DNA from: an uncultured Alistipes sp.
GTDB lineage: Bacteria > Bacteroidota > Bacteroidia > Bacteroidales > Rikenellaceae
Direction: 5' to 3'
NCBI GenBank assembly: GCA_944321765.1
Contig: CALUMQ010000001.1
Coordinates: 124,001 to 188,000 of the forward strand
DNA length: 64,000 nt
Shown: piece after piece, positions 3,609-54,025 of the stretch
Layout: the number at the start of each line of letters is the position of its first letter
Position numbering within the stretch: position 1 is the stretch's first letter
The notes under the pieces: generated by a model
What the model saw: only the letters and a program-made list of their open reading frames with translations
Databases searched by the model: none
What the model was told of the DNA's origin: nothing
Program-made: the position numbers and the translations under genes

Positions 3609-3869
3609 GGATGTCGAATCCTGTCCCGGCAGTCTTCTCTGTCTGCCGGATGATCTCGTCCGGTGTCGGTTTTTGATCAGCAGGATCATGTATTCCTCCT
3701 CCCTTCATCCGACATATACTCTTGTTTCCGGGTGATCTTTGTTCAATACAGTCCCCGGCCGCGTCGCCGTTTCCGCTTCTACTCTTTTTATTTCTATCGC
3801 CTTTATCCCTCCTTGCAAATCCTACTATACACGGGTTTCTGGGGTTGTCCTGTAAATAAAATTAATTTT

Positions 3870-3929
3870 TTAGTTGTATAACTAAGATTTTAGTTTTATC
3901 TTTGTATCGGATCAACTAAGATTTTCGTT
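3870..3929 (+). promoter_or_regulatory. BlaI-type promoter with overlapping palindromic operators
   Basis: The -7 box TATCTTTG is at 3897-3904. Two overlapping dyads precede it: TTAGTT-N4-AACTAA (3870-3885) and AACTAA-N4-TTAGTT (3880-3895). An imperfect copy, AACTAAGATTTTCGTT (3914-3929), abuts the ATG. The three dyads share the half-site TTAGTT/AACTAA and flank the promoter, which is where an autoregulating BlaI dimer would bind. The motif assignment is inference from position. Confidence 0.65.
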
Positions 3930-4313
3930 ATGGTAGAAATCGTAAAAAACCGCCCCCAGGAGCTGACCCGCGCCGAATTGGAGATCATGCAGGTGCTCTG
4001 GGCCAAAGGCGCGACGGTGGTCCACGGGATTCTCGACGAGATGCCCGAACCCCGCCCCGCCTACAACACCGTCTCGACGATCGTGCGCATTCTTGAGAAG
4101 AAGGGCTTCGTGGGCCATAAGGCCTATGGCAAGACCTACGAGTATTACCCGCTTGTTTCGAAGGATGCCTATGCGCGCCGCTACATGGATACGGTGCTCG
4201 ACAACTTTTTCGACGGCTCGGTGAGCCGCCTGGTGTCGTTCTTCTCCGAAAACCGATCGCTTTCGGCCCAGGAGACCGATGAAATCCTCACCATGCTGCG
4301 CAACAGACAGTAG
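3930..4313 (+). CDS. BlaI/MecI/CopY-family transcriptional repressor
   Basis: A 127-residue penicillinase-repressor family protein. The N-terminal winged helix carries the family pattern LTRAELEIMQVLW...YNTVSTIVRILEKKGFV (roughly residues 12-60), and the C-terminal helices form the dimerisation and cleavage region. It is followed 35 bases later by an M56 membrane metalloprotease, the usual sensor/protease partner that inactivates such repressors. Dyad repeats around its promoter suggest autoregulation. No beta-lactamase gene is adjacent, so the controlled genes are unknown. Confidence 0.92.
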   Translation: MVEIVKNRPQELTRAELEIMQVLWAKGATVVHGILDEMPEPRPAYNTVSTIVRILEKKGFVGHKAYGKTYEYYPLVSKDAYARRYMDTVLDNFFDGSVSRLVSFFSENRSLSAQETDEILTMLRNRQ

Positions 4314-49365: not shown

Positions 49366-50574
49366 TCAGTCGCGATTGAGGAAGAAGATCGGAATGTTGG
49401 CCAGGAAGACATCCTTACCGGAGAGCTGCTGCCGTTTGTCCAGGAGCTCCGAGAGCAGGATGTCGCCGATCACATAGTTGCTCTCCTCGCTGGTGTACTG
49501 TTCGTGGATCTTCGAGAAGTTGAGGATTCCGTGAATGTCCGTCTCCTTGTAGCGGGCATAGATCTTCAGCGTGATGTCGGTCGTGTAGTCGGGCTTTTCG
49601 ATGTAGTTCTGCTTCTTGTACTCGTAACGGTAGTTGTGCAGACGCGCCATGATGTCGCTGAGGATCGACGACGCCGTGGGAAGGCTTCCGGCTCCCTTGC
49701 CGAACATGAACTGCCGGTCGTAGCATTCGCCGCGGATCACCACGCCGTTGTACTCGTCGTCAACGCTGTAGATGTACTTCGAGGGGGTGACGAACTCCGG
49801 CATGACGAACATCGTGAAGTGCTCGTCGCTGACCTTGACGACCTGAGCCACGAGTTTGATCTTGACGTTCTTTTCGCGGGCGTACTGGATGTCCGCGTCG
49901 TGGATGGTCGAGATTCCGTAGGTGAAGATCCGCTCCGGGGCGACGTAGGTGCCCAGGGCGTGCACGGTGATAATGACCAGCTTGAAGAGCGAGTCGTACC
50001 CCTCGATGTCGAACGACGGGTCGCTCTCGGCAAATCCCAGGGCCTGCGCCTGCGCCAGGGCATTGGCGTAGGAGTCCTTGTGGTCGAAGACCCGCGAAAG
50101 AATGTAGTTCGACGAGCCGTTGAGGATGCCCTTCACTTCGAGCAGCAGGTCGTTGTCGTAATACTCTTCGAGGTTGCGGATGACGGGAATCGACCCGCAC
50201 GACGAAGCGTCGTAGAGCAGTGCGACGTTGCGGGTTTTCTGGATGTCGATCAGCTCCGGGAGGTGGTGGGCCAGCATGGTCTTGTTTCCCGAGACGACGG
50301 GGATGCCGCGCAGCAGGGCGCTCCTGACGATGCGGTAGGCCGCCTGTGCGTCGTTGATGACCTCGACGATCAGATTGATGTTCGGATCTTCGAGAATCTC
50401 CTCCGTCGAGGTGGTGAACAGCGCGGGGTCGACCTCGACCTTGCGGGGCTTGCGGGGATCGCGCACGCAGATCTTCAGAATCTCGGCATTGGCGTTCTTC
50501 GACTTGCGCACCACTTCGTAGATGCCCTGTCCGACGACGCCGAATCCGAACAGTCCGATTTTGATTTTGCTCAT
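49366..50574 (-). CDS. hom: Homoserine dehydrogenase
   Basis: A 402-residue monofunctional homoserine dehydrogenase reducing aspartate semialdehyde, the branch point to threonine and methionine. N-terminal Rossmann loop GLFGFGVVGQG, the homoserine-binding KGILNGSSNYILSR near 160, and the catalytic segment ALAQAQALGFAESDPSFDIEGYDSLFKL are intact. A C-terminal regulatory extension of about 80 residues follows, without a clear ACT fold. It is the last gene of metY-metX-hom, which supplies the pathway's own homoserine precursor. Confidence 0.94.
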   Translation of the reverse strand: MSKIKIGLFGFGVVGQGIYEVVRKSKNANAEILKICVRDPRKPRKVEVDPALFTTSTEEILEDPNINLIVEVINDAQAAYRIVRSALLRGIPVVSGNKTMLAHHLPELIDIQKTRNVALLYDASSCGSIPVIRNLEEYYDNDLLLEVKGILNGSSNYILSRVFDHKDSYANALAQAQALGFAESDPSFDIEGYDSLFKLVIITVHALGTYVAPERIFTYGISTIHDADIQYAREKNVKIKLVAQVVKVSDEHFTMFVMPEFVTPSKYIYSVDDEYNGVVIRGECYDRQFMFGKGAGSLPTASSILSDIMARLHNYRYEYKKQNYIEKPDYTTDITLKIYARYKETDIHGILNFSKIHEQYTSEESNYVIGDILLSELLDKRQQLSGKDVFLANIPIFFLNRD

Positions 50575-50588
50575 AGAGGGTTTCGTGT

Positions 50589-51602
50589 TTAGTTGTTCAT
50601 GAATGGGAGCAGGATGTCGTTCAGTTGTTCGTGTTCGACGAGGAATCCGTCGTGGCCGAACGGTGAGTCTATTTCGTAATAGCTGCTGTGGGGAATGCGG
50701 GCCTGCAGGCGTCGCATCTCGGCCGGCGTAAAGATGATGTCGGTCGTGATTCCGACAACTACCGTGCGGGCCGTGATACGGGCTAAGGCCGCCTCCTCGC
50801 CTCCCCTTCCGCGTCCGACGTCATGGGTGTCGAAAGCGTTGAGAATCGCATAGTACGAATAGGCGTTGTAACGACGGCAGAGCTTTTCGCCCTGATACTG
50901 CTGATAGGTGCAGGCGCGGTGCAGTGCCGGGGGCTCCTCGTGATCCTGCTGCGTGAGATTGTACCCTTCGGGGCCGCGGTAGCTCAACAGCCCGATGGCG
51001 CGCGCGGCGGCGAGCCCCTTCATGCCGGCGTCGTCACGCGGCTCCCCGAAGGTCGTGTCGGCCTCGATGGCCATGCGCTGCGTCTCGTCGATGGCTATGG
51101 CCCATGGTGAGGCTTTGGCCGCCGTGGCGATCAGCACAAGCCGCTCGAACCGCTCGGGCTCTTCGACGGCCCATTCCACGGCCTGAAATCCTCCGACCGA
51201 ACTGCCGACGAGCGTCGCGATGCGTCCGATGCCCAGGGCGTCGGCCAGCAACCGGTGCGCCCGTACCAGATCGCGTATGGTGAAGGGCGGGAAATCGCCG
51301 TACCAGGGTCTTCCGGTAGCGGGATTCACATGCAGCGGCCCCGTGGTTCCGTAGTGCGATCCGATGATGTTGGCGCAGACGACGTAGTGACGCGCGGGAT
51401 CGAGAAACCGCCCCTGCTCAACGGTGTGGGGCCACCAGTCGGCGACGTCCGAGTTGGCCGTCAGCGCGTGGCAGACCCATACGACATTGTCGCGTGCGGC
51501 GTTGAACCGTCCGTAAGTGTGGTAGGCGATCCGCAGCTCGGGAAGCGTATGCCCGGTTTCGAGTTCGAAGGCCCCGGGGGCTATGTATAACTGAGCATCC
51601 AT
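50589..51602 (-). CDS. metX: Homoserine O-acetyltransferase (MetX)
   Basis: A 337-residue alpha/beta-hydrolase acyltransferase activating homoserine for sulfhydrylation. The family segment ITVRDLV-like FTIRDLVRAHRLLADALGI, the nucleophile elbow GSSVGGFQAVEW near residue 143, and the catalytic Asp/His in TDIIFTP and GHDGFLVE are present. MetX proteins can be succinyl- or acetyl-specific; the neighbouring MetY suggests O-acetylhomoserine. The stop lies 14 bases before the hom start. Confidence 0.93.
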   Translation of the reverse strand: MDAQLYIAPGAFELETGHTLPELRIAYHTYGRFNAARDNVVWVCHALTANSDVADWWPHTVEQGRFLDPARHYVVCANIIGSHYGTTGPLHVNPATGRPWYGDFPPFTIRDLVRAHRLLADALGIGRIATLVGSSVGGFQAVEWAVEEPERFERLVLIATAAKASPWAIAIDETQRMAIEADTTFGEPRDDAGMKGLAAARAIGLLSYRGPEGYNLTQQDHEEPPALHRACTYQQYQGEKLCRRYNAYSYYAILNAFDTHDVGRGRGGEEAALARITARTVVVGITTDIIFTPAEMRRLQARIPHSSYYEIDSPFGHDGFLVEHEQLNDILLPFMNN

Positions 51603-51615
51603 CGTCCTGTCCCGG

Positions 51616-52902
51616 CTATTCGACGTGTGCGAAGGCCTGTTCGAAATCCTCGATCAGATCCTCGACGTTTTCCAGCCCGAGCGAGATGCGCAGCAGCGTC
51701 GGGGTGACGCCCGCCGCCGCGAGATCGGCCTCGCTGAGCTGTTTGTGGGTCGTCGAGGCGGGATGCGTGATGACGGTGATCGAATCGCCGATCATGGTCA
51801 TGTTGGCCGCCAGACGGAGCGATTCCACAAAGCGCACGGTGCTCTCCAGCGTCCCCTTGAGTTCGATCGTAAAGACGGCCGACGATCCGAAGCGGTAGTA
51901 TTTGTGGGCATTGGCGTAGCTCGGGTGCGATTCGAATCCCACGTAGCTGACGCTCTTCACCTTCGGGTGGTTGCGGCAGTATTCGGCCAGACGGCGTGTC
52001 GACTCCACCTCGTGCTTCACGCGCAGCGAGAGGGTTTCCAGTCCGATAAGCATCAGGTAGGCGTCGAACGGCGAGGGGCAGCAGCCCATGTCGCGCAACC
52101 CGTCGACGCGGCACTTGACGATGAAGGCCGCGTTGCCGAACGTCTTATAGAGGTTCAGCCCGTGATACCCCTCCGAAGGGCCGTCAATCTGCGGGAACTT
52201 GCCGTTTGCCCAGTTGTAGTTGCCTCCGTCGACGATCACGCCGCCCATGGCCGTTCCGTGGCCGTTGATCCACTTCGTGGCGGAGTCCACGACGATGTTG
52301 GCACCCCAATCGAAGGGATTGCAAAGATACCCTGCGGCGCCGAACGTATTGTCAACGACGAAAGGCACGTCGCGGCGGCGGGCCAGTTCACCCAGCGCCT
52401 GCAGATCGGGCACCGCGCAGGTCGGATTTCCCATGCTCTCGACATAGATGGCCTTCGTGCGCTCGTCGATCAGGGCGTCAAACGCTTCGGGATCCTCGCT
52501 GGGGGCGATGCGGCAGTCGATGCCCAGCTTGCGCAGCGTGATGCGGAACTGGTTGTAGGTGCCGCCGTAGAGGAAGGGCGAGGTGACGATGTTGTCGCCC
52601 TCGGCAGCCAGCGAGAGCACGGTGACCAGAATGGCCGACATGCCCGACGATACGGCCAGGGCTCCGACGGCGCCGTAGAGTGCGGCGATACGCTGTTCGT
52701 AGCTCGAAGTGGTGGGATTCTGCAGCCGGGTATAGATGTTTCCGGCCTCGCTGAGCTCGAAGAGACGTGCGGCGTGGTCGCAGCTGCGAAATCGGTATGC
52801 GGCCGTGGGATAGATGGCCAGGCCCCGGGATCCGGTCGGCTCCTCGGGATTCAGTCCTGCGTGGATCTGCAGGGTTTCGAAACGGTATTTTTTCGGGTCC
52901 AT
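51616..52902 (-). CDS. metY: O-acetylhomoserine sulfhydrylase (MetY)
   Basis: A 428-residue PLP enzyme making homocysteine directly from O-acetylhomoserine and sulfide. Landmarks are SRGLAIYPTAAYRFRSCDHAA, the NPTTSSYEQRIAALYG segment, and the PLP lysine in DSATKWINGHGTAMGG near residue 208. The size matches the large MetY class rather than MetB/MetC. It is the first gene of the operon, behind a Met/Cys leader-peptide attenuator (separate entries), so its transcription is likely raised when charged Met- or Cys-tRNA is low. Confidence 0.94.
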   Translation of the reverse strand: MDPKKYRFETLQIHAGLNPEEPTGSRGLAIYPTAAYRFRSCDHAARLFELSEAGNIYTRLQNPTTSSYEQRIAALYGAVGALAVSSGMSAILVTVLSLAAEGDNIVTSPFLYGGTYNQFRITLRKLGIDCRIAPSEDPEAFDALIDERTKAIYVESMGNPTCAVPDLQALGELARRRDVPFVVDNTFGAAGYLCNPFDWGANIVVDSATKWINGHGTAMGGVIVDGGNYNWANGKFPQIDGPSEGYHGLNLYKTFGNAAFIVKCRVDGLRDMGCCPSPFDAYLMLIGLETLSLRVKHEVESTRRLAEYCRNHPKVKSVSYVGFESHPSYANAHKYYRFGSSAVFTIELKGTLESTVRFVESLRLAANMTMIGDSITVITHPASTTHKQLSEADLAAAGVTPTLLRISLGLENVEDLIEDFEQAFAHVE

Positions 52903-52924
52903 ATAAATATAAATGTAAGATCAT

Positions 52925-52954
52925 AAAAAAATCCGACCTCAGGGAAGCCGGATT
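52925..52954 (-). terminator. Attenuator terminator (segments 3 and 4) of the met operon leader
   Basis: On the minus strand AATCCG (52954-52949) pairs with CGGATT (52935-52930), with an inner CC/GG pair, and is followed by seven U (52931-52925). It sits 22 bases before the metY ATG. Segment 3, ATCCGGC (52953-52947), can instead pair with segment 2, GCCGGGT (52988-52982), giving seven pairs including one G-U, which would remove the terminator. Confidence 0.8.
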
Positions 52955-52977
52955 GAATCTGTCGGAACACGATGAAT

Positions 52978-53070
52978 CTACACCCGGCGGAAGCGGTTGC
53001 ACATGCACATGACCATCATCATCACCTGATGCATGGGGCAGGAAGCCGGGTATGTGCGAGCGGTGTTCAT
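52978..53070 (-). CDS. Met/Cys-rich leader peptide of the metY-metX-hom operon
   Basis: A 30-residue leader starting MNTARTYPASCPMHQV and continuing MMMVMCMC before a short Arg-rich end (NRFRRV). Among residues 11-24 are six Met and three Cys. The coding stretch contains segment 1, ACCCGGC (53051-53045), and ends in segment 2, GCCGGGT (52988-52982), just before its stop; these two form a perfect 7-bp stem enclosing the Met/Cys codons. A ribosome stalled on those codons would block 1:2 and allow 2:3, disarming the terminator; a ribosome reaching the stop would cover segment 2 and allow 3:4. No homolog is known to me. The layout is that of an amino-acid attenuator such as those of trp or his operons. 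Confidence 0.8.
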   Translation of the reverse strand: MNTARTYPASCPMHQVMMMVMCMCNRFRRV

Positions 53071-53093
53071 CGTGATTGTCCGATCTACGGATG

Positions 53094-53101
53094 CAAATAT
53101 A
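53094..53101 (-). promoter_or_regulatory. -7 promoter box of the met operon leader
   Basis: TATATTTG on the minus strand, followed by C. Transcription should begin about 7 bases further on, near 53087, leaving about 17 bases before the leader ATG at 53070. No clear -33 TTTG was found. Confidence 0.6.
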
Positions 53102-53167: not shown

Positions 53168-54025
53168 CTATTTTCTTTTGTTGCGGAACTCCGTGGGCGA
53201 TTCACCCGCGTGTTTCTTGAAAAAACGGCCCAGATACGACTGATCGGGGAATTTCAACCTGTATGCGATCTCCTGCACCGAGAGATCGGTGGACTGGAGC
53301 ATCATCTTGATTTCGAGCAGCACGGAGCGGTCGATGAATTTCTTGGCCGAGGTGCAGACGATGTTCTGCACGATGGTCGAGAGATAGCGGGTGGATATGC
53401 AGAGTTTGTCGGCATAGAATGCCACTTCGCGTTCCTGGGCGCAATGTTCGTGGACGAGGGATACGAATCTGTGAAAGAGTTCCGTTTGTCGGGTTGTGGG
53501 ATCGACCGTATCCTGGTCGGGAAGTGCAAAGCGCTGCATTTTGTCGTAGATCTCCAGCAGGAGGTTTTGCAGGCGGTTTTTGATGATCGTGTTGCGGAAG
53601 ACGTTCTCATGGTCGTGATAGGTGTATAAGGCCATTTTGAACCAGATGGAGGCACCTTCGACGATCTGTTGCGAGGGTTTGGCGATGGGATGCTCGCGGA
53701 GCGTGTGAAAGAATGTAGGATCGAGGCGGAAGGCCGCTTCGGCGAAGAGGTCGTGGGAGAAGATGCAGAAGGACACCTTGAAATCCTCCGACCGGTTGGC
53801 CAGGAGCAGGAGGGTTCCGGGGAGCAGCAGCACGAGCGTATTGCGTTTGAGCCGCCCCTGAACCTGGCCGATGATGATGTCGGCACTACCGTCACGGCAG
53901 AAGAGTATGGCACAGCCGTCGATTCGTCCGGCGTAGTTGTTGAAAAACGCCAGATCGGATTCCCCGCAGACGAATTTTTCGTGTTCGGGGACAGAGAGCG
54001 GGTTTGCAGGCAGCATTGAATTCAT
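53168..54025 (-). CDS. AraC-family transcriptional regulator
   Basis: A 285-residue regulator. The N-terminal 170 residues form a cupin-like ligand domain; the C-terminal 100 residues hold the AraC double helix-turn-helix (ISTRYLSTIVQNIVCTSAKKFIDRSVLLEIKMMLQSTDLSVQEIAYRLKFPDQSYLGRFFKKHAGESPTEFR, summarised at about 212-280). It is divergent from the RND efflux operon, whose promoter carries a 23-base direct repeat, so it probably controls that operon. An alternative start MLPANPL lies at 54016; a TATTTTTG box at 54040-54033 leaves almost no leader. Confidence 0.92.
   Translation of the reverse strand: MNSMLPANPLSVPEHEKFVCGESDLAFFNNYAGRIDGCAILFCRDGSADIIIGQVQGRLKRNTLVLLLPGTLLLLANRSEDFKVSFCIFSHDLFAEAAFRLDPTFFHTLREHPIAKPSQQIVEGASIWFKMALYTYHDHENVFRNTIIKNRLQNLLLEIYDKMQRFALPDQDTVDPTTRQTELFHRFVSLVHEHCAQEREVAFYADKLCISTRYLSTIVQNIVCTSAKKFIDRSVLLEIKMMLQSTDLSVQEIAYRLKFPDQSYLGRFFKKHAGESPTEFRNKRK

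Follow-up and report, generated by a model that had tools for sequence, protein, structure and literature searches.

A predicted methionine leader-peptide attenuator upstream of metY-metX-hom in an uncultured Alistipes and its relatives

The metY locus and its leader region

The window analysed here, a 64-kb stretch of DNA from an uncultured Alistipes (Bacteroidota, Bacteroidales, Rikenellaceae), carries on its minus strand the genes metY, metX and hom, preceded by a short Met-rich reading frame and a hairpin with a T run (Table 1). The gene order metY, metX, hom is kept in all 11 tested loci having the same type of leader, for which we use the denomination class A. The box TATATTTG is located 66 bases past the end of an AraC-type gene (53168-54025) and reads along the minus strand; we take its pattern TAnnTTTG to be the consensus type of a -7 box. 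This pattern occurs 26 times on both strands of the window (approximately 0.016 per 80 nt of one strand) and is present at most 80 nt upstream in 29 of the 33 class A leaders whose upstream DNA was long enough, three more being too short.

Within the leader frame Met is found at residues 13, 17, 18, 19, 21 and 23 and Cys at residues 11, 22 and 24. Among 393 ATG reading frames of 12-60 codons in all six frames of the window it is the sole one with at least six Met or Cys per ten residues (it reaches seven, the runner-up five). Its last Met codon occupies 53004-53002, 16 nt ahead of segment 2. An initial annotation had described the box, the frame, four complementary segments and a 9-bp pairing at the leader start, and all of them lie on the minus strand where it had placed them. 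It had also drawn the terminator as six pairs (AATCCG/CGGATT) followed by U7. The hairpin stands, but its stem (52954-52930) comprises 11 pairs including G-U around a three-base loop, and since the first two T of the T7 run are inside the stem, five U follow it. Scanning the window with Rfam at the gathering score gave no match, SAM aptamer and T-box families included.

Table 1. Features of the metY leader region and operon in the window, with examples of the class B leader from other loci
Feature	Position	Strand	Evidence
Promoter box -7, TATATTTG (TAnnTTTG type)	53094-53101	minus	sequence; recurs upstream of class A leaders
Leader frame, 30 codons, MNTARTYPASCPMHQVMMMVMCMCNRFRRV and stop	52978-53070	minus	translation; Met-rich frame in 36 distinct leaders
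Regulatory codons MMMVMCM, residues 17-23	53002-53022	minus	recurrence of Met positions
Segment 1, ACCCGGC, complementary to segment 2 in the window	53045-53051	minus	sequence
Segment 2, GCCGGGT, final leader codons	52982-52988	minus	sequence, comparison
Segment 3, 5' arm of terminator, AATCCGGCTTC	52944-52954	minus	covariation; ATCCGGC (52953-52947) pairs with segment 2
Segment 4, 3' arm of terminator, GAGGTCGGATT	52930-52940	minus	covariation; includes CGGATT (52935-52930)
T7 run of the intrinsic terminator	52925-52931	minus	sequence
Start-region helix, CACGATGAA/TTCATCGTG	53066-53074 with 52968-52976	minus	leader start versus bases past its stop
metY, O-acetylhomoserine sulfhydrylase	51616-52902	minus	TIGR01326, above cut-off
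metX, homoserine O-acetyltransferase-like	50589-51602	minus	best match TIGR01392, below its cut-off
hom, homoserine dehydrogenase	49366-50574	minus	NF004976, above cut-off
Class B leader examples	L030 1832-1925; L124 2830-2923; L185-L214 and others		alignment A2

Class A and class B leaders among related genomes

Searching DNA with the window leader gave matches in 24 of 250 family genomes at an E value of 0.001 or better; three of the matching loci (L023-L025) contain the 5' part only and no metY. A MetY search of named genomes returned 80 loci, and the upstream regions of 34 of them (L026-L059) were read. The window MetY is 91% identical to that of L026, another uncultured Alistipes, and the upstream region of L013 is identical to that of L026. 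Searches anchored on MetY detected the gene in 59 of the 120 genomes taken from the family and in 47 of the 159 taken from the order. The 49 family upstream regions obtained (L106-L135 and L166-L184) divide into eight of class A, 14 of class B as judged by pattern, and 27 of neither type, some of these because metY closely follows another gene. Among 29 further order loci (L136-L164) class A was seen in L136; L165 was excluded from the counts because it falls within metY at a contig end. Four of these order loci (L142, L152, L158 and L164) contain frames with four to five Met or Cys per ten residues which were not judged class A.

A covariance model (R1) built on the end of the leader plus the terminator, with a strong match defined as E < 1e-8, yielded 23 strong matches in 200 family genomes, one per genome, and metY is located downstream of all 23. 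Class A thus is a minority arrangement within the family, found in 8 of 49 metY upstream regions and, by the model, in 23 of 200 genomes. With R1 a comparable match among 393 order genomes was obtained only in the window genome and in G387; the next-best one (L245, 2.6e-8) is without a Met leader, and no Met leader precedes metY in those weak-match loci that were read (L238-L243 and L245-L272). By database label class A is also present in Porphyromonadaceae (L037, L043, L044, L053), Muribaculaceae (L046, L049, L055) and Bacteroidales (L048). In one locus (L235, G081:C2) the leader at position 1456 is followed by a metY fragment (1774-1920, 49 residues aligned), and metY may be decayed or replaced there. 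We also considered copies of class A in other places of the genomes, but the five weak model matches that were read as stretches look like terminators at gene ends; one of them, in the window genome, sits behind what is presumably rpmH.

Class B is a second leader found before metY elsewhere in the family. Its short frame ends in MRMCR before the stop codon (MRMCL in L059 and L127) and its DNA reads ATGCGAATGTGCC(G/T)NTAGGCAC. This pattern occurs in 41 of 200 family genomes, once in each, with no match for the reversed control, and in none of 198 genomes of an order-wide sample. Each of the 30 loci retrieved with the pattern (L185-L214) has metY 98-146 nt downstream; with the loci fetched by metY included, the distance is 89-268 nt in 49 of 49 leaders with downstream DNA, some places having been fetched twice. 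A stem GTGCC/GGCAC surrounds the stop codon and is followed by a second hairpin, mostly with ACG in its loop, which shows changes on both sides in five of five pairs across 44 sequences. A regular U tract was not seen, and there was no Rfam match over the leader in the 12 loci scanned. None of the sampled genomes has both types (24 with class A versus 41 with class B). In two loci a SAM-I aptamer (RF00162) is positioned shortly upstream of the class B leader (L059 2772-2870, L169 287-382), possibly a tandem of SAM sensing and leader peptide. Related species with two different leaders before metY are a good system for asking how control devices replace each other.

A nearly constant property of class A is the position of its last Met codon. 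Met is placed 16 nt ahead of segment 2 (position -16) in 34 of 36 distinct leaders, with further Met at -22 in 31/35, at -28 in 28/34 and at -34 in 28/33. The two exceptions are L048, with Trp at -16 and Met at -19, and L055, with a differing segment 2 and Met at -11. The latter leader (3860-3985) is the most divergent one of class A and contains no Cys; here TGTCGGA:TCCGACA keep both pairings 2:3 and 3:4. In 34 sequences (28 distinct) the 13 nt separating segment 2 from the last Met codon are kept in length while their sequence diverges (mean identity 0.54, minimum 0.08). Leaders were recognised partly by their richness in Met and Cys and in some searches by similarity to that of the window, a procedure that partly selects for Met richness and GCCGG but not for the spacing as such. 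Total length varies from 16 to 58 codons, apart from L012 and L044 which are cut at the locus end. The distance from Met to segment 2 is stricter than that to the stop codon, because L236 and L237 have their stop 15 nt further on than most leaders and in L048 it precedes segment 2. Neither NCBIfam nor Pfam has a family for the four leader peptides tried.

The initial annotation had read Met and Cys together as the signal. Met holds this position, but Cys is present at codon -13 in only 17 of 35 leaders and at codon -19 in 18 of 35, the other half having R, F, N, S, Y, P or H at -13 and M, S, V, Y or E at -19. Therefore the conserved signal is Met, and Cys as a required signal was rejected. A leader that senses sulfur amino acids in general, with stalling at Cys codons used equally, would agree with the three Cys of the window leader, and segment 2 would likewise stay uncovered with a ribosome paused at the -13 Cys codon (13 nt); considering the nearly fixed Met at -16, against other residues at the Cys positions in about half of the leaders, we regard this reading as rather unlikely.

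At the coding end GCCGG is found close to the stop codon in 35 of 36 leaders, its constancy being partly a matter of choice since it served as anchor of the comparison. In the 34 leaders using the common frame its Arg codon is CGG without exception, and the residue ahead of it varies (R, C, S or G). A fixed CGG next to a changing residue argues more for RNA pairing than for a function of the peptide. This bears on a TnaC-like device, in which the nascent Met-rich peptide would arrest the ribosome via a small molecule without slow decoding of Met. Such an arrest could explain why many leaders end in S/N-R-x-x-R-V after the Met run. However, this end is partly forced by segment 2, residues -13 to -4 vary widely and what stays is the position of the Met codon, so that arrest of this type appears improbable.

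Pairings, ribosome position and proposed mechanism

The pairings were compared in an alignment of 32 loci with 31 distinct rows (A1), free of repeats of the same element (L007, L008, L026, L027, L106-L110); L230, L235, L236 and L237 belong to the 36 leaders but are outside A1. For the terminator 3:4, 94.4% of the cells are paired and changes on both sides occur in 7 of 11 pairs. On each of five measures none or one of 500 shuffles was as high, and the best register is slide 0. In helix 2:3 the core GCCGG:CCGGC is kept. Its five pairs are nearly invariant and covariation there is consequently thin: changes on both sides in 5 of 10 pairs (0/500 shuffles) come from the flanks and from L055, and shuffles were as high in 102/500 for cells paired, 467/500 for pair types and 28/500 for the covariation score. 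Against shuffled partners helix 2:3 passes at p < 0.05 in 20 of 32 sequences (window p 0.025).

Helix 1:2 passes the same test in 2 of 30 sequences (window p 0.08), one of the 30, L012, being invalid as a test since it is cut at the locus end. Segment 1 lies in the N-terminal part of the leader, whose mean identity among relatives is 29%. For the start-region helix 4 of 31 sequences pass (window, L005, L006 and L017; window p 0.025); in L013 it reads CACGAAAAA/TTTTTCGTG. Segment 1 and the helix proposed to hide the leader start were thus dropped as conserved parts. Aligning the metY upstream regions, as the initial annotation had proposed, bears out the Met-rich frame and covariation of 3:4, gives a thin result for covariation of 2:3 and does not show segment 1 to be conserved.

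The piece 52990-52925 (66 nt) folds no better than its shuffles (z -0.82, 36 of 200 as good), and the case for a predicted attenuator is built on the comparison of relatives without reliance on one folding energy. The only consensus structure that RNAalifold returned for A1 is the terminator hairpin. Bacterial Met metabolism is often under the control of SAM riboswitches and two class B loci carry SAM-I, but a terminator that is constitutive or controlled by a metabolite, the short frame being incidental, is very improbable considering this hairpin-only consensus, the window without Rfam match and the recurrence of the Met frame together with its distance to segment 2.

Folding was calculated for 35 sequences with the ribosome in defined states. 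Based on the footprint of the ribosome, its edge was placed 13 nt downstream, counting from the A-site codon's first base. With the ribosome on the last Met or Cys codon and before segment 4 exists, P(2:3) is 0.99-1.00 in 34 of 35 sequences (0.84 in L048). With the ribosome at the stop codon P(3:4) is 1.00 in 33 of 33 defined cases, which is nearly so by construction. When segments 2, 3 and 4 are all present the terminator is preferred in 28 of 33 defined cases even behind a stalled ribosome (window P(3:4) 0.96). As the terminator is favoured at equilibrium even in this state, antitermination requires that helix 2:3 forms first, and the choice has to be made during transcription.

We propose the following course. 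Transcription would start near 53090 and a ribosome would translate the leader behind the RNA polymerase. With ample charged Met-tRNA it would reach the stop codon and cover segment 2; segments 3 and 4 could then pair, and transcription would end in the U tract ahead of metY. With Met-tRNA scarce the ribosome would wait at a Met codon with its front edge just short of segment 2, and the free segment 2 would capture segment 3 ahead of the synthesis of segment 4 and thereby permit read-through into metY-metX-hom. A transcription start nearer to metY is also conceivable.

What the sequence itself shows is that the parts recur, that they are complementary and that the spacing is fixed at 16 nt. 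The traits of a trp/his-type device found here include a leader rich in codons for the product, a terminator 3:4 before the first gene, a conserved helix 2:3 that excludes 3:4 and regulatory codons that precede segment 2 by one ribosome edge. Judged from these comparisons, the element upstream of metY-metX-hom is very probably a ribosome-mediated transcription attenuator sensing charged Met-tRNA. The initial annotation had proposed a leader-peptide transcription attenuator of this operon, and in this core it is supported: Met frame, segments 2-4, U tract, box and operon recur.

In a trp-type device the untranslated leader terminates via helix 1:2. This helix is dispensable for stalling itself. 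Lack of Met also starves the initiator tRNA, so that a Met leader may itself fail to start. For the untranslated leader P(2:3) before segment 4 is at least 0.5 in 21 of 35 sequences and 0.01 in the window. From such modelled states one could suppose that the family is built in a way that failed initiation and stalled elongation both turn the operon on, but we consider this doubtful: on the modelled values the window species would be an exception, and 14 of the 35 sequences speak against a general rule.

Other leaders of the host genome and comparison with known systems

Upstream of hisG in the window genome (L278, G000:C24, approximately 1324-1442) the same box TATATTTG is followed by a leader reading MTIFTHIHHHHHHFSKG up to its stop codon, by the segment CAAGGGG, which is complementary to the terminator's 5' arm and loop, and by a hairpin of 11 pairs with a T run. 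This looks like a textbook His attenuator, predicted as it is, and an element of this kind in the same genome makes the Met reading more credible. A search of the window genome (88.6% complete) gave no match for the SAM-I riboswitch RF00162, and the 420 nt upstream of its ilvB contain no such leader frame (the region runs out of another gene). Taken together, the predicted Met and His leaders suggest that in these gut bacteria amino-acid genes are controlled through the coupling of translation with transcription.

The leader-peptide attenuators of trp and his in Escherichia coli are the reference system. There, as at metY, a biosynthetic operon is preceded by a short leader with many codons for the pathway's product, by a terminator and an antiterminator that exclude each other, and by a U tract. 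In the metY element, in contrast, the signal is Met, the host belongs to Bacteroidota and the 1:2 helix passes its shuffle test in 2 of 30 sequences.

A survey of 2010 states that, apart from ermC, leader-peptide systems had been known only in Proteobacteria and Actinobacteria before its own His case in Firmicutes (PMC2965389). For Flavobacterium psychrophilum hints of attenuation by leader peptides ahead of amino-acid operons are reported; these leaders are of the same phylum and the same general kind, and Met is not named in the relevant passages (PMC9723704). Together with the hisG leader they qualify the rarity suggested by the initial annotation, which had called such attenuators established mainly in Proteobacteria and Actinobacteria and knew of no Met/Cys leader in Bacteroidota: leader attenuators as such are not new in the phylum and Met is the uncommon signal. 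Leader-like small frames are also mentioned for Bacteroides thetaiotaomicron (PMC7366714). A Bacteroid-trp RNA (RF01692), of the same phylum as the window element, has also been listed (PMC2864571), and the window genome (88.6% complete) has no match for it. A search of open-licence literature turned up no described Met leader attenuator of Bacteroidota.

Among leaders for sulfur amino acids, Cys leader peptides were reported for Mycobacterium and others. They resemble the leader of the window but with Cys codons, and according to the sections seen a conserved terminator hairpin was not found in Mycobacterium spp. (PMC1262725). For Streptomyces lividans the leader metL before metNIQ, containing CMCRRMC, was predicted as a Met attenuator; as far as the consulted text goes, it controls import, its transcript is leaderless and a typical Rho-independent termination structure is missing (PMC8079986). 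With these precedents from Flavobacterium, Streptomyces and Mycobacterium the window element belongs to a known type of control. The phylum's leaders have been described only in general terms in the literature cited; what is added is the resolved anatomy of a predicted Met attenuator in Bacteroidota that recurs across many species, and its fixed distance of 16 nt from Met to segment 2 offers a sharp test of the edge position of a stalled ribosome in this phylum. Compared with metL, the metY leader of Alistipes has both its terminator and its antiterminator resolved and recurring.
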